DNA of 28,389 nt from a virus: positions 1-28,389 of IMG/VR virus record IMGVR_UViG_3300042565_000310. The stretch is one strand, 5' to 3'. The translations under genes were made by a program, and so were the position numbers. Position 1 is the first letter of the stretch, and each line of letters starts with the position of its first letter. Positions 381 to 19,677 of the stretch are shown here, one piece after another. The notes under the pieces were generated by a model. The model saw only the letters and a list, made by a program, of their open reading frames with translations. It was not told the origin of the DNA and did no database searches.

Positions 381-3300
381 ATGTCTAATCCATCAAATTT
401 ATATGCAGAAAAGATATTTTCTGAGCACCCACTAGTTCTTTGGGCGCTTGACGATCAAGCAGACTATATAAGTTTGATTACAGAGCAGCAACGGGACATA
501 GAGTCTGAATGGGTTGTTACTGGCGGAACAGCAGAAGCAAGTGTTGGATTTGCTGGACAACCTTTTGGCGATAGCATTACAACAATTTTAGAAGGTAGTG
601 TTCCAGCAGGACAGACTAACGATATTATATGCATTAGTCCTAACCTCCTAAACTTTCAAAATTTAAACTCAACTCTTGGAACATTTTCTGTGGGTGGATA
701 TTTTTATTCTAATAGCGTATACCTTCAATCTGTTTCTATTGGATATGAATATACAGATACTACGACATCTGCAATTGTTCAAAAATTTAATACTTTTAAT
801 ACTGAACTATTTCAGAGTTGGGGTTTTGTTTCTGGAACATTTGAAATACCAGATGAGAATACAGACTTCCGTGTAGTAGTAAAAATAACAACAACTTTAG
901 GTGGAGACAATACAGAAGACTATCAGTTTTATCTTAATGGAATAACTGTTGGTCAATGGGCTGAAGAATTTCATACAAACTCTCTTGGAGTAGAGCCAAC
1001 AACAGTTCCAGCAACAATTGCTATTGATGCATCAGATGGAATTGCAGCATCGGCATACGGAAGTTCAACAGATACTGCATATTATCTTGCATATAACAAT
1101 TCTTTAATTGCAAAAAATACAAGCGTTCCATTGGTCTTTGGCGCCTCTGGTGTAACAAAGATTATACCTAATGCAAACAATGAGCCATCGTTAATCGTTC
1201 CTGGAAAAGGTTTTTTAAATAAGGTTGGTCAACATAAAGAATATACTGTAGAGTTTTGGGCAAGAATAAACTCTGATTCATATGCTCCTAAAAGAATCTT
1301 TGGCCCAATTGCTTCAACGGATGGTCTTTATGTAGAAGGTGGATTTTTAACATTAGTTATTGGTAAAAGATTTTCTTCACACTTTGTTGGTGAGTGGTTT
1401 AGACCAATGCTTATTCATGTTCGTGTTATTAGAAATTCAGCAACAGTATTATTAAATGGAGAAGAAGTTATATCTTTAATCATAGATACAGACACACTAG
1501 AACTTCCAGAAAAATATGATATAAATGATAAGGATCAAGATTGGCTAGGGTTTTATGCCTATACTGATGTAAATCCTATTGAGGTTGACTGTGTTGCAAT
1601 TTATTCTTATCAAGTTGCAGTAACCGTTGCAAAACGTAGATGGGTATATGGACAAGGAGTTCTTTCTCCAGAAGGAATTAACTCAGCATATGGTGGAACA
1701 TCAGCATTTATTGATTATCCATTTGCTGACTATACTGCTAACTATAACTACCCAGATTTTGCACAATGGGATCAGGGTACATTTGATAACCTAACCACAA
1801 CAACTACAACACTTACAACCCCACAGTATTCTTTGCCAGAAATATTTTTATCAGATGAAACACTTGAAACACTTTATACAGATAATCTAGATATACAAGA
1901 TCCAGAAGATAGTAATTTTATAACCTTTAGGCCAAATGTCTCCTGGAATAACGTTCAGTGTTATTTTAATTTTCCAAGATTTAACATTTTAAACAATCAG
2001 ATATCTAGCATATATGGAGTCTTTAGCGCATCAGATTTAACTGAAACCCAGACATTGTTTAAAATATACAACACACTTACTGGAAACTATTTTTTAGTTC
2101 AGCAAGACGAAGATGTTATTAATTACAACCTTTATTTTGGCGGGGTAACAGAAACATTATATTCATATAACAGTATTGTAGAAGATGAAAAGTTTGCTGT
2201 AGGAATTAACATAAGTAACCTTACTTCTAACTTTGGAGAAAATGTTGCAGCCTTCTTTGGAAATCAAAATGGATTAAAAATATATGTCGCTGGAGATGAA
2301 GTAGCAGCAAATACATTTGAAGGAAAAATATATTCATTTGGCATGTCAACATCAGTCAATGCTTCAGAAATATCTTCGCATTTTACAACTTCTGGTTTTG
2401 CAATAGAGGAAGATGCGGTAAGTTTGCTGGCACATACAGCAAGTTATACACTGCTTCCATCTCAGGCATATGAGACATTCTTCTTAGACATTGGAGTTTC
2501 TGGATACTGGGAAGACTATCTACCCCTATCCTATTTTGCTCAATTTGTTACAAACGATATTGGCAATGAGTTTTATGACTTAGATTTTTTACAATTTAAC
2601 TTAGGCTACCCATCACCATCAAGATTAACAGAAAAAGAAACAACATCTTCTTGGACATACGGAACCCTTAGAGATACTTACTCAAACCCAGTACAAAGAA
2701 CATATTCACAACTAGACAATAATCTATTTACTGGATGGAATAACTATGAAGACATGGCTCAAAGAGCAGAAAAATATTATGAATACGACACCTCAGATGC
2801 ATCTGTTAAAAGTTATATAACTCTTCAATATATAACAGAAGGAGCAAATGCTCCACAAGATAGTTTTACTACAATTGAGCCAGCAAAGCAAGGATCAATT
2901 ATTGATATTGATTTATACCCACACTGGGAAACGACTAAATTTGAAGTTGTAAATAATACTTTAATATATCCAACAAAAACTGTTGACTTTAATGAACTAG
3001 CCCTTGTATATCATTTAGAGTTTAATGTAAGAGGAATCCTAAGCAAGCCAATCTCTTTACGTAGACTAGAACTAGCGTCACAGGCATTAAGCGATAACTC
3101 ATTTAATCCTATTGGAACAAGATTTGGTGTTGACCTATTTCCATATAAACGAGCAGGAATATACTATGACTACAAATCAAAGAACCCATTTAGCATTTAT
3201 AAAGGAAGCACACCCTATTTATACTTAACACGTAATTCTGGCATTGAAGTTCGTGGAGACTTTGATCCACTTGTTAACCGTGGTATTGCTGTCCCAATGA

Positions 3301-3968
3301 ATCAGTCTCAGGCTGCAGACTATAGTGTTAGTGCAATGCAAATGTGGATGAGATATGATGAAGACAAGTTTCCATCAACTCCAGTAGAGTTATTTGAAAT
3401 TGACTATAAAGACGATATTATAAAGTTTTATATTGTTGCCGATAGCGAAAAAGGTACTAGAGCAAAAATATTTGCTAAGTCACTTCTTACTGGACTAGAC
3501 TTTAATGGATTGACATATTATTTAAATGGAACTCTTGTTAGAGAGCCAGTATTAACAGTCAAGGAATGGTCTGTTTTGGGTATTGCATTTGCAGCAGCGC
3601 TTAACCTAGATTACTACCTTGGTGGAATTAATCTAAACGGACCAATGATATTTAATAACGTAGCCTATTATCAAGCAAACAACTTGCAGCAAGTTCAAAG
3701 TACATTAACAAGGCCATGGCTTAGGGTTAAAACTGATGGGGTTACAAACTTTCAGTGGAACTACTGGAAAAATAACTTTGTTTGGGAAGGTGTTCTCGTA
3801 ATTTCAGCATCAGATGCATATGGAGTTAATCCATCAGACATTTATAAGACATATCTAGGAACTAATAAGATTATTATTGATGATGATGGCGGTATGAATA
3901 TAGATCTTGACAGATTAAGAATCTATAACACTGTTTCTTGGCAGACCACTAACAACACAGCCGTATAA
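381..3968 (+). CDS. Large virion protein with multiple LamG/concanavalin-like segments
   Basis: The protein has 1195 residues, with ATG at 381 and AGGAG five bases upstream. The N-terminus (NLYAEKIFSEHPLVLWAL) resembles the opening of many LamG/ConA-like phage domains. A clearer LamG-like segment spans about residues 270-430, with YTVEFWARI near 288 and LLNGEEV near 357. A third beta-rich segment is near 505-690. A fourth is near 980-1140, with MQMWMRY near 986 and YYLNGTLV near 1046. It has no signal peptide or membrane segment, and it is rich in Asn, Thr, Tyr and Ser, as is usual for beta-structured fibre or decoration proteins. Such jelly-roll domains commonly bind glycans, so a surface-exposed role (receptor binding or decoration) is likely. 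Its place before the portal rather than after the tape measure is unusual. The domain type is fairly secure; its location on the virion is unknown. Confidence 0.75.
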   Translation: MSNPSNLYAEKIFSEHPLVLWALDDQADYISLITEQQRDIESEWVVTGGTAEASVGFAGQPFGDSITTILEGSVPAGQTNDIICISPNLLNFQNLNSTLGTFSVGGYFYSNSVYLQSVSIGYEYTDTTTSAIVQKFNTFNTELFQSWGFVSGTFEIPDENTDFRVVVKITTTLGGDNTEDYQFYLNGITVGQWAEEFHTNSLGVEPTTVPATIAIDASDGIAASAYGSSTDTAYYLAYNNSLIAKNTSVPLVFGASGVTKIIPNANNEPSLIVPGKGFLNKVGQHKEYTVEFWARINSDSYAPKRIFGPIASTDGLYVEGGFLTLVIGKRFSSHFVGEWFRPMLIHVRVIRNSATVLLNGEEVISLIIDTDTLELPEKYDINDKDQDWLGFYAYTDVNPIEVDCVAIYSYQVAVTVAKRRWVYGQGVLSPEGINSAYGGTSAFIDYPFADYTANYNYPDFAQWDQGTFDNLTTTTTTLTTPQYSLPEIFLSDETLETLYTDNLDIQDPEDSNFITFRPNVSWNNVQCYFNFPRFNILNNQISSIYGVFSASDLTETQTLFKIYNTLTGNYFLVQQDEDVINYNLYFGGVTETLYSYNSIVEDEKFAVGINISNLTSNFGENVAAFFGNQNGLKIYVAGDEVAANTFEGKIYSFGMSTSVNASEISSHFTTSGFAIEEDAVSLLAHTASYTLLPSQAYETFFLDIGVSGYWEDYLPLSYFAQFVTNDIGNEFYDLDFLQFNLGYPSPSRLTEKETTSSWTYGTLRDTYSNPVQRTYSQLDNNLFTGWNNYEDMAQRAEKYYEYDTSDASVKSYITLQYITEGANAPQDSFTTIEPAKQGSIIDIDLYPHWETTKFEVVNNTLIYPTKTVDFNELALVYHLEFNVRGILSKPISLRRLELASQALSDNSFNPIGTRFGVDLFPYKRAGIYYDYKSKNPFSIYKGSTPYLYLTRNSGIEVRGDFDPLVNRGIAVPMNQSQAADYSVSAMQMWMRYDEDKFPSTPVELFEIDYKDDIIKFYIVADSEKGTRAKIFAKSLLTGLDFNGLTYYLNGTLVREPVLTVKEWSVLGIAFAAALNLDYYLGGINLNGPMIFNNVAYYQANNLQQVQSTLTRPWLRVKTDGVTNFQWNYWKNNFVWEGVLVISASDAYGVNPSDIYKTYLGTNKIIIDDDGGMNIDLDRLRIYNTVSWQTTNNTAV

Positions 3969-3970
3969 TC

Positions 3971-3979
3971 TGCTATACT
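3971..3979 (+). promoter_or_regulatory. Extended -10 promoter (TGCTATACT), probably leaderless
   Basis: TGCTATACT lies immediately after the stop codon at 3966-3968. The last T of the box is followed by seven bases and then ATG at 3987, so transcription should start at or next to the start codon. There is no ribosome site in between. A TATAAT (3964-3969) also overlaps the preceding stop codon but lacks the TGn extension. Confidence 0.6.
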
Positions 3980-3986
3980 TGTGGTT

Positions 3987-5982: not shown

Positions 5983-6013
5983 TTGAGAAAAACTTATAAA
6001 CAAATGCTATAAT
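5983..6013 (+). promoter_or_regulatory. Promoter (TTGAGA - 19 bp - TATAAT, extended -10) for the head block
   Basis: TTGAGA (5983-5988) directly follows the portal stop and is 19 bases from TATAAT (6008-6013), which carries a TGC extension. Nine bases separate the box from ATG 6023 and there is no ribosome site, so the protease mRNA is leaderless or nearly so. This is the best full promoter in the window. Confidence 0.7.
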
Positions 6014-6022
6014 AGAAACGTT

Positions 6023-7333
6023 ATGTTAACAAACAAGGCTCATTGGGTAACTGAAGGTGACAATGTTCGCCTCTCAATGCCCATCGGAAAAGTAGATATT
6101 GAACGCCGTATGGTGTCAGGCTTTGCAACGCTTGACAACGTAGATAAGCAGGGCGACATTGTAACAACGGAATCTAGCGTTGAAGCATTTAAAAACTTCC
6201 GTGGAAATCTTCGTGAAATGCACCAACCATCAGCAGTTGGAAAGATCGTTTCATTTAAAGAAGATAAGTACTTTGATCCAAATGACAAGAAATTTTACAG
6301 CGGAGTCTATGTATCTGCATACGTTTCAAAGGGTGCACAGGATGCCTGGGAAAAGGTTCTAGACGGAACATATACTGGTTTTTCAATCGGTGGAAACATT
6401 AAGACATGGGACGATGCTTATGATGAAAAAATGGATAAGTCAATCCGTGTAATTAAAAATTATGAACTACATGAACTTTCTTTAGTAGATAATCCAGCAA
6501 ATCAATTTGCCAATATTGTATCTATTGAAAAAGTCAATGGACAAAATGTTGTTGGTGGATATCTATCAAAAGCAGAAGTTGAAAATGTATTTTGGGATTC
6601 AGAAAGCGGTATCGTAATGATATCAGACGCTGAATCAGCAGTAAGTCCAACCAATGGCAATAAGATGCAAAACATAGGTTTTATAGAAAAGAATGATAAA
6701 GAAAATACAGAAATGATAAAATTCTTAGTTGATAGTGCTAAAGGCATTAGTACAATTAAGATTACTAAGGAGGTAAATCCCATGACAGAATCAACAGAAG
6801 CAGCAGTAGACGCTGTAGTTGAAAATGCAGAGGTTGCTCCAGAGGCACAACCAGCAGAAGTTGTAGAGACTCCTGCAGTTGCTGAAGAAGTTGCAGTTGC
6901 TGAGGAAGCACCTGTAGCGGAAGCAGTTGACGGCGGTGCAGATTCTCCTGTTGCTGAACAAGCAGCAGTAGAAGTAGAGAAAGCAGAAGAAGCAGTGGTT
7001 GACGCCGTTTCAGAAGTTAAAGAAGAAGTTGCTAAAGCAGTTTCAGAAATTAATGCTTCTCTTACTAATGCCTTTGGCGATCTTGCTGCAACTATTAAGT
7101 CTCTTAACGAGCAGGTAGCAGCAGTAACAAAGTCTCTTGATGCAGTAACATCAGATGTTAATGGAATTAAGAGTAACTTTAACGAGTTTGGCAAGCGAGT
7201 AGATCTTGTAGAGCAAGACACCGCTTTCCGCAAGTCTGGCGATCTAGGCGAGATCGTACAGGAATCACCACAAGTGGTTCAAAAATCCCTATGGGGCGGT
7301 CGTTTCCTCACAAATACCGACCTATTTAACTAA
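6023..7333 (+). CDS. Prohead (capsid maturation) protease with C-terminal scaffold-like extension
   Basis: The protein has 436 residues. Residues 1-175 are an HK97-type (Caudo_protease, S78/U35) maturation protease: VSGFATLDNVDKQGDIV, then REMHQPSAVG with the likely catalytic His at 67, then YTGFSIGG with the likely catalytic Ser at 121, then the hallmark ELSLVDNPAN. Residues 175-250 form a linker. Residues 255-430 are Ala/Glu/Val-rich and predicted helical (EVEKAEEAVVDAVSEVKEEV), followed by heptad-like INASLTNAFGDLAATIKSLN, as expected of a scaffolding or delta domain. The protease cuts scaffold and capsid N-termini inside the procapsid. The gene has no ribosome site at its own start and probably uses a leaderless mRNA. 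An internal ribosome site and start at 6767-6784 suggest that the scaffold part is also made alone. Confidence 0.9.
   Translation: MLTNKAHWVTEGDNVRLSMPIGKVDIERRMVSGFATLDNVDKQGDIVTTESSVEAFKNFRGNLREMHQPSAVGKIVSFKEDKYFDPNDKKFYSGVYVSAYVSKGAQDAWEKVLDGTYTGFSIGGNIKTWDDAYDEKMDKSIRVIKNYELHELSLVDNPANQFANIVSIEKVNGQNVVGGYLSKAEVENVFWDSESGIVMISDAESAVSPTNGNKMQNIGFIEKNDKENTEMIKFLVDSAKGISTIKITKEVNPMTESTEAAVDAVVENAEVAPEAQPAEVVETPAVAEEVAVAEEAPVAEAVDGGADSPVAEQAAVEVEKAEEAVVDAVSEVKEEVAKAVSEINASLTNAFGDLAATIKSLNEQVAAVTKSLDAVTSDVNGIKSNFNEFGKRVDLVEQDTAFRKSGDLGEIVQESPQVVQKSLWGGRFLTNTDLFN
6767..6774 (+). promoter_or_regulatory. Internal ribosome binding site for a nested scaffold protein
   Basis: AAGGAGGT, near-perfect complement to the 3' end of 16S rRNA, lies inside the protease gene seven bases before an in-frame ATG at 6782. 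It is as strong as the site in front of the major capsid gene and is far stronger than anything at the protease's own start. This argues for real internal initiation. Confidence 0.75.
6782..7333 (+). CDS. Putative capsid scaffolding protein, nested in frame within the protease gene
   Basis: Starting at ATG 6782 (protease residue 254) gives a 183-residue protein that shares its C-terminus with the protease. It opens MTESTEAAVDAVVENAEVAP, continues as acidic Ala/Val/Glu-rich sequence, and then has a predicted coiled coil up to about FNEFGKRVDLVEQD. This composition is typical of scaffolds. The arrangement is the same as lambda C/Nu3, where the scaffold is made in excess from an internal start while the longer fusion delivers a few protease copies. 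The major capsid gene that follows has no coiled-coil delta domain at its N-terminus, so a separate scaffold is expected. Internal initiation is inferred from the ribosome site and not proven. Confidence 0.7.
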   Translation: MTESTEAAVDAVVENAEVAPEAQPAEVVETPAVAEEVAVAEEAPVAEAVDGGADSPVAEQAAVEVEKAEEAVVDAVSEVKEEVAKAVSEINASLTNAFGDLAATIKSLNEQVAAVTKSLDAVTSDVNGIKSNFNEFGKRVDLVEQDTAFRKSGDLGEIVQESPQVVQKSLWGGRFLTNTDLFN

Positions 7334-8575: not shown

Positions 8576-8584
8576 TGGTATAAT
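8576..8584 (+). promoter_or_regulatory. Extended -10 promoter (TGGTATAAT) for the connector block
   Basis: TGGTATAAT follows the post-capsid hairpin. Transcription would start near 8591. That makes the ATG at 8590 an unlikely start and leaves a short leader carrying GGGAGA (8598-8603) before ATG 8608. Confidence 0.55.
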
Positions 8585-8607
8585 TACAAATGACTATGGG
8601 AGAAAAT

Positions 8608-11704: not shown

Positions 11705-12337
11705 ATGCCATATAGCCGTGGTACGTCAAACAACATTATCGTTGGTGCAGCAGCGCTTTTTGTCGCAGATACAATTTTGACTCCAGGAACACTGGAATCT
11801 TTTGATGCAAGCGAATCTTTTAAAGAAACACTTGCAGACGATGCATCGTATACCAACGTAGGTTACACCATGAACGGTCTAGAATTGCAGTTCCAACCAG
11901 ACTTCGGCGAAGTCCAGGTAGACCAAATTCTTGACGTTGCAAAACTATATAAGCAAGGTATGCAGGTTAATCTTGCTACCGCTTTTGCTGAAGCAACACT
12001 AGAAAACTTGCTTCTTGCACTAGCATTTAAAGATACACAACTTACAGGAAACAAGGCAGCATCTACAGGTCAGACACTTAATCTATCTGCAGGTGAACTT
12101 GGAGAATGTCCAGTAGAACGAGGAATCGTTGCTGTTGGTCCAGGAACTGGAGATTGCGATGAGTCTGACAGCGTTGAGCGTGTTTACACAGCATACCGTG
12201 CTCTATCAATTGAGAACGTAACTGTGTCCGCTAAGCGTGACGAACCATCAATGTTTGAAGTTTCATTCCGTCTTCTTCCTGAAGATGCGTCAGGTTCTTA
12301 CGGTAAGATCGTAGATCGTACTTGGGGACAATCATAA
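11705..12337 (+). CDS. Major tail (tube) protein
   Basis: The protein has 210 residues, with ATG 11705 preceded by AAAGAGGTGA (11689-11698). The leader GAGGTGAACAA is almost the same as that of the major capsid gene. The sequence is beta-rich and acidic (NIIVGAAALFVADTILTPG, then YTMNGLELQFQPDFGEVQVD). A C-terminal beta pair has IENVTVSAKRDEPSMFEVSF, typical of tube subunits that stack as hexamers. Position is between the tail terminator and chaperones. All seven arginine codons are CGN, as expected for an abundant protein. The gene is followed at once by a strong terminator, marking the end of a transcription unit. Confidence 0.85.
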   Translation: MPYSRGTSNNIIVGAAALFVADTILTPGTLESFDASESFKETLADDASYTNVGYTMNGLELQFQPDFGEVQVDQILDVAKLYKQGMQVNLATAFAEATLENLLLALAFKDTQLTGNKAASTGQTLNLSAGELGECPVERGIVAVGPGTGDCDESDSVERVYTAYRALSIENVTVSAKRDEPSMFEVSFRLLPEDASGSYGKIVDRTWGQS

Positions 12338-12355
12338 TCTAAATTTAGATTAACT

Positions 12356-12391
12356 CAAAGCCCATCTCTAATGAGGTGGGTTTTTTGTTTT
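12356..12391 (+). terminator. Strong rho-independent terminator after the major tail gene
   Basis: CCCATCTC (12361-12368) pairs with GAGGTGGG (12373-12380) through eight base pairs including one G-T, around a TAAT loop. It is followed by TTTTTTGTTTT and preceded by A-rich sequence. This is the only textbook terminator in the window. It separates the abundant tube protein from the low-copy tail genes. Confidence 0.9.
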
Positions 12392-12396
12392 GCTTA

Positions 12397-12405
12397 TGAT
12401 AGAAT
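12397..12405 (+). promoter_or_regulatory. Extended -10 promoter (TGATAGAAT), near-leaderless
   Basis: TGATAGAAT starts within six bases of the terminator's T-run. Nine bases separate it from ATG 12415 and there is no ribosome site. This is the same spacing as at the protease promoter. The box would restart transcription for the chaperone and tape-measure genes. Confidence 0.55.
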
Positions 12406-12414
12406 AGAAAGATT

Positions 12415-13110
12415 ATGGCAACAACTGTATATCAAACAAAAAATGTTACATTAATTAATGGAACAGAAATAGAAATTATTCCATTAAAAATAAAATATCT
12501 CCGTGAGTTTATGGAGGCATTTGAAAATGTTAAAAGTGCTAAAAATGACGATGAGGCTATAGAATTTTTAGTTGAGTGTGTAAGAATTTCAATGAAACAG
12601 TTTTATCCAAAAATATCAAAAAATAAATCTGATATAGAAGATAATCTTGATATGCCAGCAATATACACAATCTTAGATATTTCTGCTGGAATTAAAATAA
12701 ATCAAAAGTCAGATAATACTGTTAAGGATCAAGCAACAGATAGCGGGTCAAGTTGGTCAGAACTAGATTTAGCAAAGATTGAATCAGAAGTTTTTTTACT
12801 AGGCATATGGAAAGATTATGAAGAGTTAGAAAAATCATTATCTATGCCAGAGTTAATGGCAACACTTTCAAGTCGTAGAGAACTTGACTATCAAGAAAAA
12901 AAGTTTCTTGCTGCAATTCAAGGGGTAGATTTAGACAAAGAGTCTGGATCTAGCAGGGGACAAAAAGAATGGGAAGACATGAAAGCAAGAGTATTTAGTA
13001 AGGGTGCAACTGGTGATAGCAAAGATATTTTAGCATTACAAGGACAAAATGCTAGACAAGCAGGGTTTGGTATTGGAGCAGGTCTTGAATATGAGGACCT
13101 TAGAAAATAG
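12415..13110 (+). CDS. Tail assembly chaperone, long form (G-T type)
   Basis: The protein has 231 residues from ATG 12415, with no ribosome site, probably near-leaderless. Residues 1-98 are the G-type domain (LINGTEIEIIPLKIKYLREF, then ECVRISMKQFYPKIS), clearly homologous to the short gene downstream. Residues 120-231 are a T-type domain: FLLGIWKDYEELEKSLSMPE, then RRELDYQEKKFLAAIQGVDL, then GIGAGLEYEDLRK. This resembles the frameshift extension of tail chaperones in actinobacterial phages. Chaperones coat the tape measure before tube polymerisation. Here G and T are joined in one continuous frame and no slippage is needed. Arginine codons are mainly AGR (six of eight), consistent with lower expression than the short form. 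Confidence 0.85.
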   Translation: MATTVYQTKNVTLINGTEIEIIPLKIKYLREFMEAFENVKSAKNDDEAIEFLVECVRISMKQFYPKISKNKSDIEDNLDMPAIYTILDISAGIKINQKSDNTVKDQATDSGSSWSELDLAKIESEVFLLGIWKDYEELEKSLSMPELMATLSSRRELDYQEKKFLAAIQGVDLDKESGSSRGQKEWEDMKARVFSKGATGDSKDILALQGQNARQAGFGIGAGLEYEDLRK

Positions 13111-13118
13111 CCTTTCTA

Positions 13119-13127
13119 TGCTATAAT
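13119..13127 (+). promoter_or_regulatory. Extended -10 promoter (TGCTATAAT) before the short chaperone
   Basis: A perfect TGCTATAAT lies in the 41-base gap between the two chaperone genes. Transcription should begin near 13134, just upstream of a perfect AGGAGG (13141-13146) and ATG 13152. This gives the short form its own strong expression signals. Confidence 0.65.
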
Positions 13128-13151
13128 TGACATAACCTATAGGAGGAAATA

Positions 13152-13481
13152 ATGGCAACAACTACGCATGAGGAAACAATCCTTACGCTAATTGATGGCA
13201 CAAAGGTTACAGTACGTCCTCTGAAAATCTCTCTACTTCGTCCATTTATGAAGAAGTTTGAGGGTGTGGGAGCAGTGGCGGATAATAATGAAAAATCTAT
13301 GGACATTCTTATGGAATGCGTTCAGATTGCAATGAAACAGTATAAGCCAGAACTCTCAGAAGACGTTACAAAACTAGAGGAGATCGTTGATCTTCCAACT
13401 GTTTACAAGATTGTTGAAGCAGCATCAGGTATTAAACTTGCTGAGGTTTCAGACGTTCTTGGCGTAACCATGGCTGAATAA
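13152..13481 (+). CDS. Tail assembly chaperone, short form (G type)
   Basis: The protein has 109 residues from ATG 13152, with a perfect AGGAGG five bases upstream. It is a paralogue of residues 1-98 of the preceding gene: both begin MATT, and LTLIDGTKVTVRPLKISLLR matches VTLINGTEIEIIPLKIKYLR. The pattern continues with MECVQIAMKQYKPELSEDV and LPTVYKIVEAASGIKL. It ends at 13481 with no T-type reading frame behind it in any register before the tape measure, so it cannot serve as a frameshift donor. Both arginines use CGT. By analogy with lambda G and GT, this would be the abundant partner. Confidence 0.85.
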   Translation: MATTTHEETILTLIDGTKVTVRPLKISLLRPFMKKFEGVGAVADNNEKSMDILMECVQIAMKQYKPELSEDVTKLEEIVDLPTVYKIVEAASGIKLAEVSDVLGVTMAE

Positions 13482-13503: not shown

Positions 13504-16500
13504 ATGGCTGATGTTAATGCAAATATTGACATTAATATTGATTCGTCTAATGCATTAGCACAACTAAAATCTCTCCAACGACAGATTTCACAGTTTCACA
13601 CCTCAATAGCCAAATCAAGCGAAGCAGCAGCCCTTGCTCAAAGAGGCTTGCAAAAAAATCTTTTAAGTAGTATAAACTCAATCGGTGCTTTTACAGCCGA
13701 AATGAGAACAGTAAAAACATCTGCAGAATCATTCACTGATTCATTAGAAAAAAATAAGTTCTCAATGCGTGAGTACTTCCGCTATGCGGGAGCCTCAACA
13801 AAAACATTTGGTCGTTTATTTAAATCAGAGTTTGACACAATTGGCAAGGTAGCCGAAGAACGTGTAAAAACATTACAAACCCAATATATTAAAATGGGTC
13901 GTAATGCTAGTGGTGCAATGGAAGCAATGGCTATCAGGCCTGCATCTCTTGACATGGAAGATTATGGCACAAGAACAGCAATTGCAGCACAGAAACAAGC
14001 ACTGTTTAATCAGTTAATGAGGCAAGGTTCTACCAATCTTTTAAATTTTGGTAAGAATACACAATGGGCTGGTCGTCAATTAATGGTTGGTTTTACTCTT
14101 CCACTTATGGCTGTTGGAACCGCAGCAACAAAAACCTTTATGGACATGGAAGCCCAGGCTATTAAATTTAAGAAGGTATACGGAGATTTATTTACTCCAA
14201 AAGAAGAAACACAAGCAGCATTAGATAATATAACAGAACTTGGAAGACAGTTTACAAAATATGGTGTTGCGGTTGCAACAACAGTTGGTTTGGCAGCAGA
14301 GGCTGCAGCAGCAGGTTTTCAAGGATTAGACTTACAGCGTCAAACAACAGAAGCAACTCGTCTTTCTATTCTTGGTCAAATAGATACACAAAAGGCTCTT
14401 GAGACAACCATTTCTTTACAGAATGCTTTTGGAATGTCCTCAGATAAACTTGCAGATTCAATTAATTTTCTTAACGCAGTAGAAAACCAAACAGTAGTAT
14501 CTCTTGATGATATTACTACTGCAATTCCAAAGGTTGCTCCAGTTATTCAGCAACTTGGTGGAGATGTAAAAGATTTAACATTCTTCTTAGCAGCAATGAA
14601 AGAAGGAGGCATTAATGCTTCAGAAGGCGCCAACGCACTTAAGTCTGGTCTTGCTGCATTAATTAATCCAACAGGTAGAGCATCTGAAATGCTTCAGGCT
14701 TTTGGCATTAATGCTAAAGAAATTGTAACATCAAATAAAGGTGATCTTAAAGCAACTGTAATAGAATTTGCAGAAGCATTAAATCAATTAGATCCACTAA
14801 ACAGGGCACAGGCAATTGAGCAGATGTTTGGCAAGTTCCAGTTTGCTCGTCTTTCAGCGCTTTTTGCAAACGTTACAAAAGAAGGAAATCAGGCATCCCG
14901 TGTTCTAAGTTTAGCAAATTCATCAGTAGAAGAACTTTCTAGTTTATCTGAGCAAGAACTAGGAATGACTGCAGATTCTTCAATGAATAAATTTAAAAAG
15001 AGTGTTGAAGATCTTAAGTTAGCACTTGTTCCAGTTGGAAAAGCATTCTTAGAGGCAGTAACTCCGATAGTTGAATTTGTTGGAAACATTCTTGAAAAAT
15101 TTGCAAATCTTTCTGAGGGAACAAAAAGAATTATAACGCTTTTGACTGTTGGCATTGGAGCAGCAGGACCTGTACTGCTTATGACTTTTGGTTTACTTGC
15201 AAACGGTATTGCTAATATAATTAAACTATTCCTTACTTTGCGTGGAGGATATCAAAGACTAACTGGACAAACACAAATACTTGGTGAACAAACACAGTAT
15301 ATGACAATAGAGCAGTTAGAAGCAGCAGCAGCAGCACATTCACTTGATCAAACACATGCAAGACTTACACAAACGTTTACTGCTGAAGCAAGTGCTATTA
15401 ATCAATTAATAAATGCATATAACTCTGCAGCATTAGCAGCATCAAAATTTGCAGCAGCAAATCCTGGAATGATGATGCCAACACGTGGCGCTAGAAAACT
15501 TGCTAATGGAATTGTTTCTGTTCCAGGAAGCGGCAAGGGAGATACAGTTCCTGCAATGCTCACACCAGGTGAAGCAGTTATTCCAACAGATTTAGCAAAA
15601 AAATATGCACCATTAATTCAGGGAATGGTTGCAGACAATATTCCAGGGTATAGAAGTGGAAGAATTGGATCAGGAGCATCAGGAAGAGTTGGTAAATCAG
15701 GTACAACCGTAGTAAGACCATACCTTGAAAATGTTTCTAATACAAGTGGTTTGGTAAATTTTGAAGACATTAATCCATCCGATTTAGCAGATGTTGCAAG
15801 TATATATGTTAAAGAAATTATGGATAAAGCAAAGGTATCAGCCACTGCAATTGCAAGAGAAATGGATCTCTGGAAAGCAAATAATCTTGCTGCAATTCAA
15901 GCAGCAGAGGCTGCAGTAAATGCAGGAAAGCCAGCAGCAGATGCTTTTGGACCACTTGTTGAAAAGTTTAATGCAGACATGGAAGCATCTGGTGGTGCTG
16001 TTCATAAGTTTAATATGACAGCAACAGAAATAATGCCAGAATTACAAAAAGATTTAATTGAAGCACAAACAAAAGCAAAAGAACTTTCTCTTAATATTAA
16101 AAAGGGGGCAGATGCAACAGCACTTGCAGAAGCACTTCCTAATAACATAGTTGCTAACGCAGCAGCAACTCCTGGAGCATATGGATCACGCAGTAAACAA
16201 CGTCAAGCAGCAGTTATGCGACAAAGTGGAACAGCAGGAATAGAAACATATGGAATTCCACGTTTTATGCTTCCAACAAATGTAGATCCTCAAAGCAAGT
16301 CTAGTAAACTTTCAACATCACAAGAACATTTTTCTACAACAAGAATTCAAGAAGCAAATCTTGCAACACAATCTAAACTTAGAGAAAAAGCAAAAAGGGA
16401 TGCAGAAGAATATAAAAAAGGAACAGAGCAAGCAGGATTAAAAGATCTTTATGTTGTAAGTCAAGATCGTCAAAGCCCACATCGCCTTGCTGCTCAAGAT

Positions 16501-19500
16501 GGAAAAGATGATGCAAATGCATACTCTAATGCTGCAGCAACAGCAGTAAGAAAGGGTCCAAGAAGAGCAACAAGACCACAAGGTCCAGCAGCAAAGTTGT
16601 CAGAAATTCAAGCAGAAATGCCAGCAAGTCCACAAGTTTTAGCAGCAGGACAACAGCAACTAAACAACATAAAGCAATCTTCCGAAAGATTGTCAAGAAT
16701 GAACAATGCAATTATGGGTGGAACATTTGCACTTACTTCACTTGCTGGTGCAGGAACAATGGCTGGAGGAACCATAGGAAACCTTTCCTCACAAGTAATG
16801 AAATACTCTGGTTTATTATTTGGTTTGATGTCTGTAACCCAACTTTTAACACAGACTAAGGTATTAGAACTGGCAAGAACTAGGGCTAACACAGCAGGCT
16901 TACTAGTTGCAAATGCTGCTACAGGGAAAATGGGACTTCAGACTGGTTTGTTTAGCGGTGGAATTAAAAAACTACTTCCGAACCTATTAAACTTTGGAAA
17001 AATTATAGCAAGATTCTTAGGACCAGTTGGATTAGTTATATCTGGTTTATTATTAACAAAGAGTGCTTTTGACTTATACCGTAAGTCTAAAGAAAAAGAA
17101 AGAATGGCAACAGAAGGTCTTGCTGATGCAATGACTATGACAACAGACAAGGTTAAACTTTTAGCAGGCTTATTAGGTCAAACACCAACAGCAAGAGCAG
17201 GGGCTGGAGCAAGAGTTAGTGCTAATCAACTTAATGCTACAGAACAAACTGCCGTAGATGAATTAAGAAGTAGCAAAGAGTTTTTAGATAAATATAAAAA
17301 CGATATTCTTGCTATTAAAAATGCAACAGTATCAGAAGCACAAATTGCCTTTAATGCTATTGCATTAGATCTTGGTGGTCAGGGCTTTTCAAAGGATGCT
17401 GTAAAAACATATATTGACGCTTTAGGTGAAGAGGCTGGTAAAACAGAAGTTTCTTTAAAGTTTAAACAACTTGATTTATCTACAGAAGAAGGAAAAGCCG
17501 CTGCAATTAAATTAGCAAAAGATACAACAATAGGATTTAATAAGGCATTTGAAGATGGAATTAAAAAAACAAGAAAAGTTGTTGGTGGTGGCAGAGGCGG
17601 AGTAATTCTAGGACCAGAAACAATTGCTTTAACTAAAGAACAACAAAAACAATTAAATATTACTTCTGCAGCACTTGGAAATACACTTACAGGATTAACT
17701 TCAGCATTTGGAAATCAAACAATAAAAGCAGACGAATACAATAAAAAAATGGCAGAAATCTCAGCAACTATACCTAAAGGAACTGAGGGACTATTGCTTA
17801 TGGACAAAGTTTTACTTAATGTAAGTCCTGCCTTTGCTGAAGCAAGTAAAGGTATTAAAGATTATGATACAAAAATGTTATTGTTAAGAGCGTCTTTAGT
17901 TAATGCATCTGTTGCTGAAACAATTTTTCAAGATTTAATTTCAAAGAATCCAGCAAAAGTTGCAGCCGCTAAAGCACAATTAGAAAAATATAGAGTTGTT
18001 GCTGACGCATTAGCAAAAAATGTTGTTATTCCAGATCCATTTAAAGAAGTAGATACAGGCGGAACAAAAGAAAAAAGCCCATTCCAAAAAGCAAAAGAAG
18101 ACTTAATAGCACAAAGAAAAGAATTGGAAAATACAAGAAAAACATATTCTAAGTTAAAGTCTGTAGGTATGGAAACTGGAAAAGCATTTGAAGCAGCAAA
18201 AAATCCAATATTGGCTGCAGCCTTAGCAACAACAAAAGTTGGATCATCACAATGGAAAACTCTTCTTGGATTAATTAAACAAGTAAACGCAGAAAGTAAA
18301 AAAGCATCTCTATCACCAGAAGAAATGTTTGACGTTGTAGAACAAAGTATTGAGGCTAAATATAGAAATGCAATTAAAACTGGTGAAGCAGCAATTGAAA
18401 CTGCACAACAAGCAGTAAGCGGAATAGAAAAAGAAATTTCAACCATTCAAGATTCTATAGAGAAGAAACAAAGAAATATAGAATTAACTTTTAACAGACC
18501 AATTGAGACTTTGCAGGCTGAGTCTTCAGTCTTGTCTGAGCAATTAAGGGATATTGATAGAGCAGCAGAAGCAGTTAATGCTAAGTATGACTTACAAGAA
18601 AAAGCCCTTAGTAAAATTTCTCAAATTAATCAAGATATTGTAGCGCAAGAAAAATCTAAACTTACACTTGCAGATGCTTTAAGCCAAGGAGATATATCAG
18701 CAGCAGCCAAGGCTGCACAAGAAATAAGAGCCACAGAAGCAGAAGCCTCTGTAAGAAGAAGCACTGAGGCTTTACAGGTTGCAAGAGATTCTGAAATTGG
18801 TGGACTAAGAAGTGCAACTGGATTAACAAAAGATCAAATTGCTCAAAGACAGTTTGAGATTGAAAAACAAATTTATGCAATAGAACAACAAAAGTCAATT
18901 GCTACTGCACAAATTCGTATAGAAGAAGACAAAATTTATTCAATTCAACAAGGAAGACTGCTTACTGCACAAAATACAGTTATTAAAGCAGAAGAAGAAT
19001 TACAAAAAATTAAAACAAAATTAACAGATGAACTTGCTGTTAACAATCAAGCAAAGCAATTCTGGGCAGATAAAGAACTTGCAGATAATTTAGCAAAAGT
19101 TAGAGCAATAGAATATCAAAATGAAATTAAGAAAACTCAAAATAATGCACAAGGTGTCTTAGATAGAATATTAGCCCTTAATAGAACAGTAACTACAACC
19201 CATATAATTAAAACTGTTAATCAATCATCTGGACCCGCCAGTCCAACGACTCCATCTAGCCCTTTTACTGGGTTTAGAATTAATGACAGGATGTATGGTG
19301 GAAAGATTAAACGAATGAGAATGGGTGGTCTAGTACCTAAATACATGGCTATGGGTGGTGCGGTTGGTTCAGACACAGTGCCAGCAATGCTGACTCCTGG
19401 AGAATTTGTAATGAATAAAAAGGCAACTCAAGAGTTTGGCCCTTTACTTTCAATGTTAAATGAGTCTAAATATCCATCAATGATTGGCTCTAGTTCGTCT

Positions 19501-19677
19501 TCACAAATTCCTGTTAATAGTATTTCTTCATCTGTTAGCGACAACTCTACAGCAGTGTATAATTATAGTTTAGGCTTTAACATTAATGGAACTAACTCAA
19601 ATCCTAATGATATTGCTAGAGCAGTTATGGCAGAAATAAAGCGGGTAGACGCACAAAGAATTAGAGGACAAAGATAA
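13504..19677 (+). CDS. Tape measure protein
   Basis: The protein has 2057 residues, with ATG 13504 preceded by AAGAGGTG. It sets tail length, acts as a tail-assembly core and is ejected during DNA entry. At about 0.15 nm per residue it predicts a tail near 300 nm. Residues 1-130 are a helical N-terminus. Residues 185-480 contain the TP901-type core (GRQLMVGFTLPLMAVGTA, then GLAAEAAAAGFQGLDLQRQT, then FLAAMKEGGINASEGANAL). Hydrophobic stretches lie near 543-575, 1095-1120 and 1160-1185. A long coiled coil spans about 1620-1880. The motif DTVPAMLTPGE occurs twice, at about 680-690 and 1957-1967. No lysozyme or peptidase motif was recognised. Its stop overlaps the next start (TAATG). Confidence 0.95.
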   Translation: MADVNANIDINIDSSNALAQLKSLQRQISQFHTSIAKSSEAAALAQRGLQKNLLSSINSIGAFTAEMRTVKTSAESFTDSLEKNKFSMREYFRYAGASTKTFGRLFKSEFDTIGKVAEERVKTLQTQYIKMGRNASGAMEAMAIRPASLDMEDYGTRTAIAAQKQALFNQLMRQGSTNLLNFGKNTQWAGRQLMVGFTLPLMAVGTAATKTFMDMEAQAIKFKKVYGDLFTPKEETQAALDNITELGRQFTKYGVAVATTVGLAAEAAAAGFQGLDLQRQTTEATRLSILGQIDTQKALETTISLQNAFGMSSDKLADSINFLNAVENQTVVSLDDITTAIPKVAPVIQQLGGDVKDLTFFLAAMKEGGINASEGANALKSGLAALINPTGRASEMLQAFGINAKEIVTSNKGDLKATVIEFAEALNQLDPLNRAQAIEQMFGKFQFARLSALFANVTKEGNQASRVLSLANSSVEELSSLSEQELGMTADSSMNKFKKSVEDLKLALVPVGKAFLEAVTPIVEFVGNILEKFANLSEGTKRIITLLTVGIGAAGPVLLMTFGLLANGIANIIKLFLTLRGGYQRLTGQTQILGEQTQYMTIEQLEAAAAAHSLDQTHARLTQTFTAEASAINQLINAYNSAALAASKFAAANPGMMMPTRGARKLANGIVSVPGSGKGDTVPAMLTPGEAVIPTDLAKKYAPLIQGMVADNIPGYRSGRIGSGASGRVGKSGTTVVRPYLENVSNTSGLVNFEDINPSDLADVASIYVKEIMDKAKVSATAIAREMDLWKANNLAAIQAAEAAVNAGKPAADAFGPLVEKFNADMEASGGAVHKFNMTATEIMPELQKDLIEAQTKAKELSLNIKKGADATALAEALPNNIVANAAATPGAYGSRSKQRQAAVMRQSGTAGIETYGIPRFMLPTNVDPQSKSSKLSTSQEHFSTTRIQEANLATQSKLREKAKRDAEEYKKGTEQAGLKDLYVVSQDRQSPHRLAAQDGKDDANAYSNAAATAVRKGPRRATRPQGPAAKLSEIQAEMPASPQVLAAGQQQLNNIKQSSERLSRMNNAIMGGTFALTSLAGAGTMAGGTIGNLSSQVMKYSGLLFGLMSVTQLLTQTKVLELARTRANTAGLLVANAATGKMGLQTGLFSGGIKKLLPNLLNFGKIIARFLGPVGLVISGLLLTKSAFDLYRKSKEKERMATEGLADAMTMTTDKVKLLAGLLGQTPTARAGAGARVSANQLNATEQTAVDELRSSKEFLDKYKNDILAIKNATVSEAQIAFNAIALDLGGQGFSKDAVKTYIDALGEEAGKTEVSLKFKQLDLSTEEGKAAAIKLAKDTTIGFNKAFEDGIKKTRKVVGGGRGGVILGPETIALTKEQQKQLNITSAALGNTLTGLTSAFGNQTIKADEYNKKMAEISATIPKGTEGLLLMDKVLLNVSPAFAEASKGIKDYDTKMLLLRASLVNASVAETIFQDLISKNPAKVAAAKAQLEKYRVVADALAKNVVIPDPFKEVDTGGTKEKSPFQKAKEDLIAQRKELENTRKTYSKLKSVGMETGKAFEAAKNPILAAALATTKVGSSQWKTLLGLIKQVNAESKKASLSPEEMFDVVEQSIEAKYRNAIKTGEAAIETAQQAVSGIEKEISTIQDSIEKKQRNIELTFNRPIETLQAESSVLSEQLRDIDRAAEAVNAKYDLQEKALSKISQINQDIVAQEKSKLTLADALSQGDISAAAKAAQEIRATEAEASVRRSTEALQVARDSEIGGLRSATGLTKDQIAQRQFEIEKQIYAIEQQKSIATAQIRIEEDKIYSIQQGRLLTAQNTVIKAEEELQKIKTKLTDELAVNNQAKQFWADKELADNLAKVRAIEYQNEIKKTQNNAQGVLDRILALNRTVTTTHIIKTVNQSSGPASPTTPSSPFTGFRINDRMYGGKIKRMRMGGLVPKYMAMGGAVGSDTVPAMLTPGEFVMNKKATQEFGPLLSMLNESKYPSMIGSSSSSQIPVNSISSSVSDNSTAVYNYSLGFNINGTNSNPNDIARAVMAEIKRVDAQRIRGQR

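Follow-up and report, generated by a model that had tools for sequence, protein, structure and literature searches.

The short and the long tail assembly chaperone of most tailed phages are made from one gene by ribosome slippage. This G/GT frameshift is among the most conserved recoding events of tailed phages, and a requirement for a fixed ratio of the two products is often given as the reason for it. In lambda, the tape measure protein is coated by many copies of gpG and few of gpGT, at about 30:1, with the T part serving to recruit the tail tube protein (PMC5009743); the -1 programmed frameshift behind gpG and gpGT was described by Levin (1993) and Xu (2004), as cited in PMC5009743. Other arrangements have been reported: some T4-like phages carry a short chaperone gene and a long fusion gene (Vladimirov et al., 2022, as cited in PMC10885494), and Microbacterium Cluster EA phages have two chaperone ORFs with no evident frameshift (PMC7302621). 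Here, a virus record of 28.4 kb, which is probably a fragment from an uncultivated phage and is referred to below as the window (the whole stretch of DNA that was analysed), was compared with related loci. It carries two neighbouring genes, GT and G2, and our results make it very likely that short G and long GT are made from these two paralogous, separately initiated genes instead of by a -1 frameshift.

The genes and signals of the chaperone locus lie on the plus strand. The GT gene (12415..13110) encodes 231 aa and joins a G-type domain (aa 1-100, 12415..12714; phrog_10504) and a T-type domain (aa about 108-231, 12736..13107; phrog_10474) in one frame, as the sequence-only reading of this DNA had proposed, and the same in-frame fusion was found in 251 loci. 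The second gene, G2 (13152..13481), encodes a G-only chaperone of 109 aa that is homologous to the G domain of GT (termed G1 in the following). The major tail protein gene (11705..12337) lies immediately 5' of GT; its product matches PHROG 2175 and, weakly, PHROG 885, and its homologues in the relatives are annotated as major tail protein. On the other side, G2 is followed by an ORF of 2057 aa (13504..19677), the position of which is annotated as tape measure protein in the relatives. GT and G2 thus sit between the major tail protein and tape measure genes, as tail chaperone pairs do. G2 and the tape measure gene are 22 nt apart in the window and never more than 36 nt apart in 227 loci, and no T-like frame was found 3' of G2 in this gap, neither in the window nor in the 227 loci. 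Moreover, an in-frame TAA directly 5' of the tape measure ATG argues against a fusion of G2 with the tape measure protein.

Sequence alignment of GT residues 1-100 with nearly the whole of G2 showed 42% identity (E 1e-29), and a profile-profile comparison of the G1 and G2 families gave a probability of 99.9% (E 2.7e-35). The earlier claim of a separate, homologous G-only gene with no T frame behind it therefore holds. GT residues 108-231 are homologous to the separate T ORF that lies in the -1 frame in Streptomyces phages, with which they align, and match phrog_10474. Two products with a common N-terminal G domain, one of them with a C-terminal T domain, were found, as in a chaperone pair, and the homologues in relatives carry the annotation tail assembly chaperone. 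In AlphaFold models, both G domains have the same predicted elements, two strands followed by helices, at matching positions; an unrelated fold, which would have spoken against the paralogy claimed earlier, was not found. A structure search with the GT model recognized a viral protein of 215 aa (E 7e-14), an unnamed protein (E 3e-7) and a named tail assembly chaperone (E 1e-4), and N15 GT and several others at only E 0.02-0.06. Among solved structures no significant match was obtained, the top PDB match of G2 being HK97 gp13 (2ob9; E 1.3, TM 0.46); PDB sequence searches returned chance matches alone (E 0.18 or worse) or none, and Pfam offered no reliable family for GT or G2. From the homologues, the position and the fold we infer that GT and G2 are tail assembly chaperone genes.

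In comparison with lambda, the long product likewise consists of G and T domains and the genes likewise lie between those for the major tail and tape measure proteins; unlike lambda, there is no frameshift here, T being in frame with its own copy of G while a second gene gives the short form. Homology to T4 gp51 or gp26, which we take to be the tail chaperones of T4, was not detected (hhalign probability about 1%). The T4-like phages, as far as they are known through the citing paper, are alike in having a separate short gene and a homologous long fusion gene without frameshifting; they differ from the present case, where the genes are adjacent, belong to an actinophage tail module and have a single origin from frameshifting phages, and where GT and G2 are divided into a leaderless and a Shine-Dalgarno start, the T4-like side of this comparison again resting on the citing paper. 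The two-gene arrangement of GT and G2 apparently evolved independently of the T4-like one. Stanwilliamsviridae (Coruscant, Circinus, Braelyn, Stigma) share homologous G and T domains (about 36-48% identity) and the gene order, but their single G gene is followed by T in the -1 frame, and the Stigma annotation joins the two by a frameshift. Cluster EA phages are likewise actinophages without evident frameshift; for them, however, two separately expressed ORFs were described, and a G gene together with a full GT fusion was not reported there (PMC7302621). No description of the GT and G2 arrangement in actinophages was found in the open-access papers searched, although one may exist. The sequence-only reading had called the arrangement a different solution to the same assembly problem: this needs a qualification, since a short and a fusion gene had already been reported for some T4-like phages, according to the account given in PMC10885494.

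Among 409 related loci from viral contigs including IMG/VR (the window's own locus included), two architectures were observed: an in-frame GT followed by G2 in 251 loci and a G gene with T in the -1 frame in 139, the remaining 19 showing part of the pair only, in nearly every case because the stored sequence breaks off at that point. The window and all 251 fused loci read G and T in a single frame, and G2 lies 3' of GT in every fused locus whose sequence reaches that far. Intermediates, that is, a frameshifted G-T with an extra G or a fused GT without G2, were not found in the 409 loci, which came from viral-contig scans covering both domains and both classes, and no relatives were found in GTDB genome contigs. 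A DNA search against sequenced phages had no hits and thus revealed no isolate carrying the fused state. The architecture and the differences in signals and codons described below exceed chance, given 251 loci and recurrence in 118-128 distinct sequences. In the frameshift class, Stanwilliamsviridae infecting Streptomyces have a single G gene with T in the -1 frame; in Stigma, G-T is annotated as a joined frameshift product, and the Rhodococcus phages Dorin and NiceHouse are annotated likewise. In IMG/VR loci where T is separate, its frame is likewise offset by -1 from that of G. A canonical slippery heptamer (CCCAAAC/T, GGGAAAC or AAATTTG) was found at the end of G, at one place, in 76 of 85 distinct genes of this class. 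The ancestral frameshifted state that had been suggested for the relatives was thus indeed encountered, with a -1 frameshift and canonical heptamers.

The start regions of the two genes differ, and here the details pointed out before bore up. The major tail protein gene and GT are separated by an intrinsic terminator (12357..12384), a hairpin of 12 pairs followed by a T run, with a dG of -18.1 kcal/mol and z of -5.6 (12338-12384, flank included); a terminator-like hairpin 5' of GT was present in 99% of 114 distinct relatives as compared to 23% of random stretches. It is followed by the extended -10-like element TGATAGAAT of the putative GT promoter (12397..12405), which scores 7/8 against TGNTATAAT and ends 9 nt 5' of the GT start codon in the window; in the relatives the element ends 6-9 nt 5' of the ATG. 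If transcription begins 7 nt downstream of the -10, the GT message is predicted to start at about 12412, which leaves a leader of about 3 nt. The implied leader is 5 nt or less in 97% of distinct relatives, with a predicted start 0-3 nt before the gene, and a Shine-Dalgarno of -8 or stronger occurs in 0% of relatives. Leaderless genes are common in Actinobacteria, and a TA-like signal about 10 bp 5' of the start has been published as their mark (PMC3160421). By contrast, G2 is preceded by the perfect extended -10 TGCTATAAT (13119..13127) and by the Shine-Dalgarno AGGAGG (13141..13146; anti-SD duplex -10.2 kcal/mol), both as described in the sequence-only reading. TGNTATAAT is exact 5' of G2 in 128/128 distinct relatives, compared to 1.2% of random 60-nt stretches; the predicted leader measures about 19 nt, 99% of distinct relatives have a strong Shine-Dalgarno, and this is stronger for G2 than for GT in 201/201 paired loci. 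A generic sigma-70 scan revealed no clear excess of promoter-like sites over shuffles, so the -10 assignments rest on conservation across relatives. The GT -10 in many cases falls short of the consensus, but since an exact match is present in 11% of the distinct loci and in 19% of the representatives used for the tree, a weaker promoter is not a constant difference between GT and G2; the constant differences are the leaderless versus the Shine-Dalgarno start and codon usage. The G genes of the frameshift class, sister clade included, have a start of the G2 type and, like GT, lie behind a terminator, which suggests that G2 has probably kept the ancestral control region and that the start of GT is probably new.

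Furthermore, the arginine codons AGR/CGN number 6/2 in GT and 0/2 in G2 of the window, in agreement with the AGR-rich arginine codons of the long gene and the CGT codons of the short gene noted earlier. Among the relatives, AGR accounts for 74% of arginine codons in GT, 22% in G2 and 10% in the tail protein, and the CAI against tail-protein usage is 0.50/0.51 for the two domains of GT, 0.61 for G2 and 0.71 for the tail protein itself. Median dN/dS was about 0.1 in all three domains, indicating purifying selection. For the same phage pairs, dS of G2 was 0.23, about a third of the 0.63 of G1. The low dS of G2 fits strong codon selection, as expected, and recombination could also lower dS.

In a tree built from 598 columns of the neighbouring major tail protein and two connector proteins, with 121 representatives, the fused state formed a single clade with a support of 96 and one state change. 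The fused clade is sister to frameshifting phages, mostly with GGGAAAC, and the deeper branches, including the Streptomyces and Rhodococcus phages, frameshift throughout. Because the fused clade is nested within frameshifters, the direction of change runs from frameshift to fusion, and the frameshift was lost once, in the ancestor of the fused clade, as read from this tree; the two-gene state is accordingly one derived clade, in agreement with the sequence-only reading. A first T-domain tree of few columns had required three changes for the fused state, with the sister frameshifters inside the fused group, and this placement was superseded by the longer neighbour-gene tree with its one clean change. 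In the G-domain tree, G1 (99) and G2 (94) form clades of their own, G2 adjoins the G of the sister clade, and G1 is the faster-evolving of the two (mean identity 0.52, against 0.64 for G2).

Following this, we propose that the chaperone locus was duplicated in the common ancestor of the fused clade. One copy would have become GT, with a continuous G and T frame, a new start beside the upstream terminator and a nearly leaderless message, while the other, G2, would have lost T and the slippery site and kept a promoter, leader and Shine-Dalgarno of the ancestral type. G2 would then be the source of the abundant G coating the tape measure protein, and GT, made in small amounts, would recruit the tail tube protein with its T domain, so that the G:GT ratio would be set by two genes with different modes of initiation and not by recoding. 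The signals and codons point to expression strength as what probably sets this ratio, and they suggest that GT is scarcer than G. In mycobacteria, leaderless messages are translated about as robustly as leadered ones (PMC4633059), and GT therefore need not be scarce; its weak step could be transcription, codons or the 1-3 nt before the ATG. That the clade dropped the frameshift exactly once and now fixes the ratio through a leaderless, scarce GT as opposed to an abundant, Shine-Dalgarno-led G is the full version of this proposal, which we favour with some reserve.

Other readings of the same locus were weighed against this one. GT might still recode, by a frameshift or an internal stop or start, to yield G, which would leave G2 as an extra, specialised chaperone. 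The GT genes are A/T rich and contain about two canonical heptamers each from composition, but near the junction a canonical heptamer occurs in only 11 of 125 distinct GT genes, with types and positions mixed, as opposed to the one place in the frameshifters, and we hold recoding in GT to be very improbable. Neither mark of lambda-type frameshifting, an offset T frame and a slippery heptamer near the end of G, was found for GT and G2: the window has no canonical heptamer at the GT junction nor at the end of G2, G2 carries one in 13 of 122 distinct genes, and no conserved slippery site exists in either gene, the relatives being at background frequency; a slippery site in the short gene, which would have spoken against the earlier reading, was thus not found. 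A new role for G2, for instance in acting on another tail protein, with GT as the sole chaperone, could be read from the separate G1 and G2 clades and their clade-specific conserved residues. This is nonetheless quite unlikely, as G2 is the slower copy and groups with the G of the frameshifters while G1 is the faster one, and G2 has a control region of the frameshifter type and adjoins the tape measure gene.

Acquisition of the second G from another phage by recombination, instead of duplication within the lineage, would agree with the long branch of G1, which has no firm place among frameshifting G proteins. However, joining G1 and G2 in one clade gives a tree that fits no less well (lnL 8.3 higher, p-AU 0.67), and the architecture arose once and was inherited vertically, so we regard acquisition as unlikely. 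The remaining alternative, that the ratio is uncontrolled, any ratio being tolerated and the signal differences reflecting operon position only, draws on the efficiency that leaderless starts can have in actinobacteria (PMC4633059) and on other genes in the window that also appear leaderless. It is opposed by the clade-wide maintenance of both the leaderless/Shine-Dalgarno split and the codon split, and the strongly reduced dS of G2 points to selection on expression level; its probability appears low, and a ratio set by two differently initiated genes is retained as the preferred reading.

The locus brings both chaperone states together in one homologous family, with a switch that maps to one branch and regulatory differences that can be read. 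With it one can test directly whether it is the ratio, and not recoding as such, that selection maintains, and whether a protein ratio can be set by leaderless initiation on one gene and Shine-Dalgarno initiation on the other. Annotators should not impose a frameshift on such loci, and a probable function can be given to two unnamed PHROGs, 10504 as G and 10474 as T.

Several further observations were made in the window and its relatives. In three loci (L008:4694-5472, and at the same place in L036 and L043), an insertion of about 780 nt between GT and G2 holds a methyltransferase-like ORF of about 210 aa with the motif VLELGCGSG, and GT and G2 are both intact despite the gene inserted between them. 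In Samistivirus/Coruscantvirus-type loci (L163, L165, L166, L170-L174), T is in the -1 frame and CCCGGAA, for which re-pairing in the A site is incomplete, replaces the expected heptamer. TTG was the start codon most frequently called in the frameshift class, and in a frameshifting environmental clade (L178-L249) a TTG preceded by a strong AGGAGG appears to be the start of most G genes. Elsewhere in the window, at 6005-6023, 8576-8590 and 3965-3981, an extended -10 ends 1-9 nt before a start codon with a weak Shine-Dalgarno; the genes with such starts begin at 6023 (protease-like), 8590 and 3981, and these leaderless-looking starts suggest that leaderless initiation may be a general mode in this phage. 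Finally, an ORF of 1195 aa (381-3968) just 5' of the portal gene shows a weak match to a carbohydrate-binding domain and has its own TGCTATAAT and Shine-Dalgarno.
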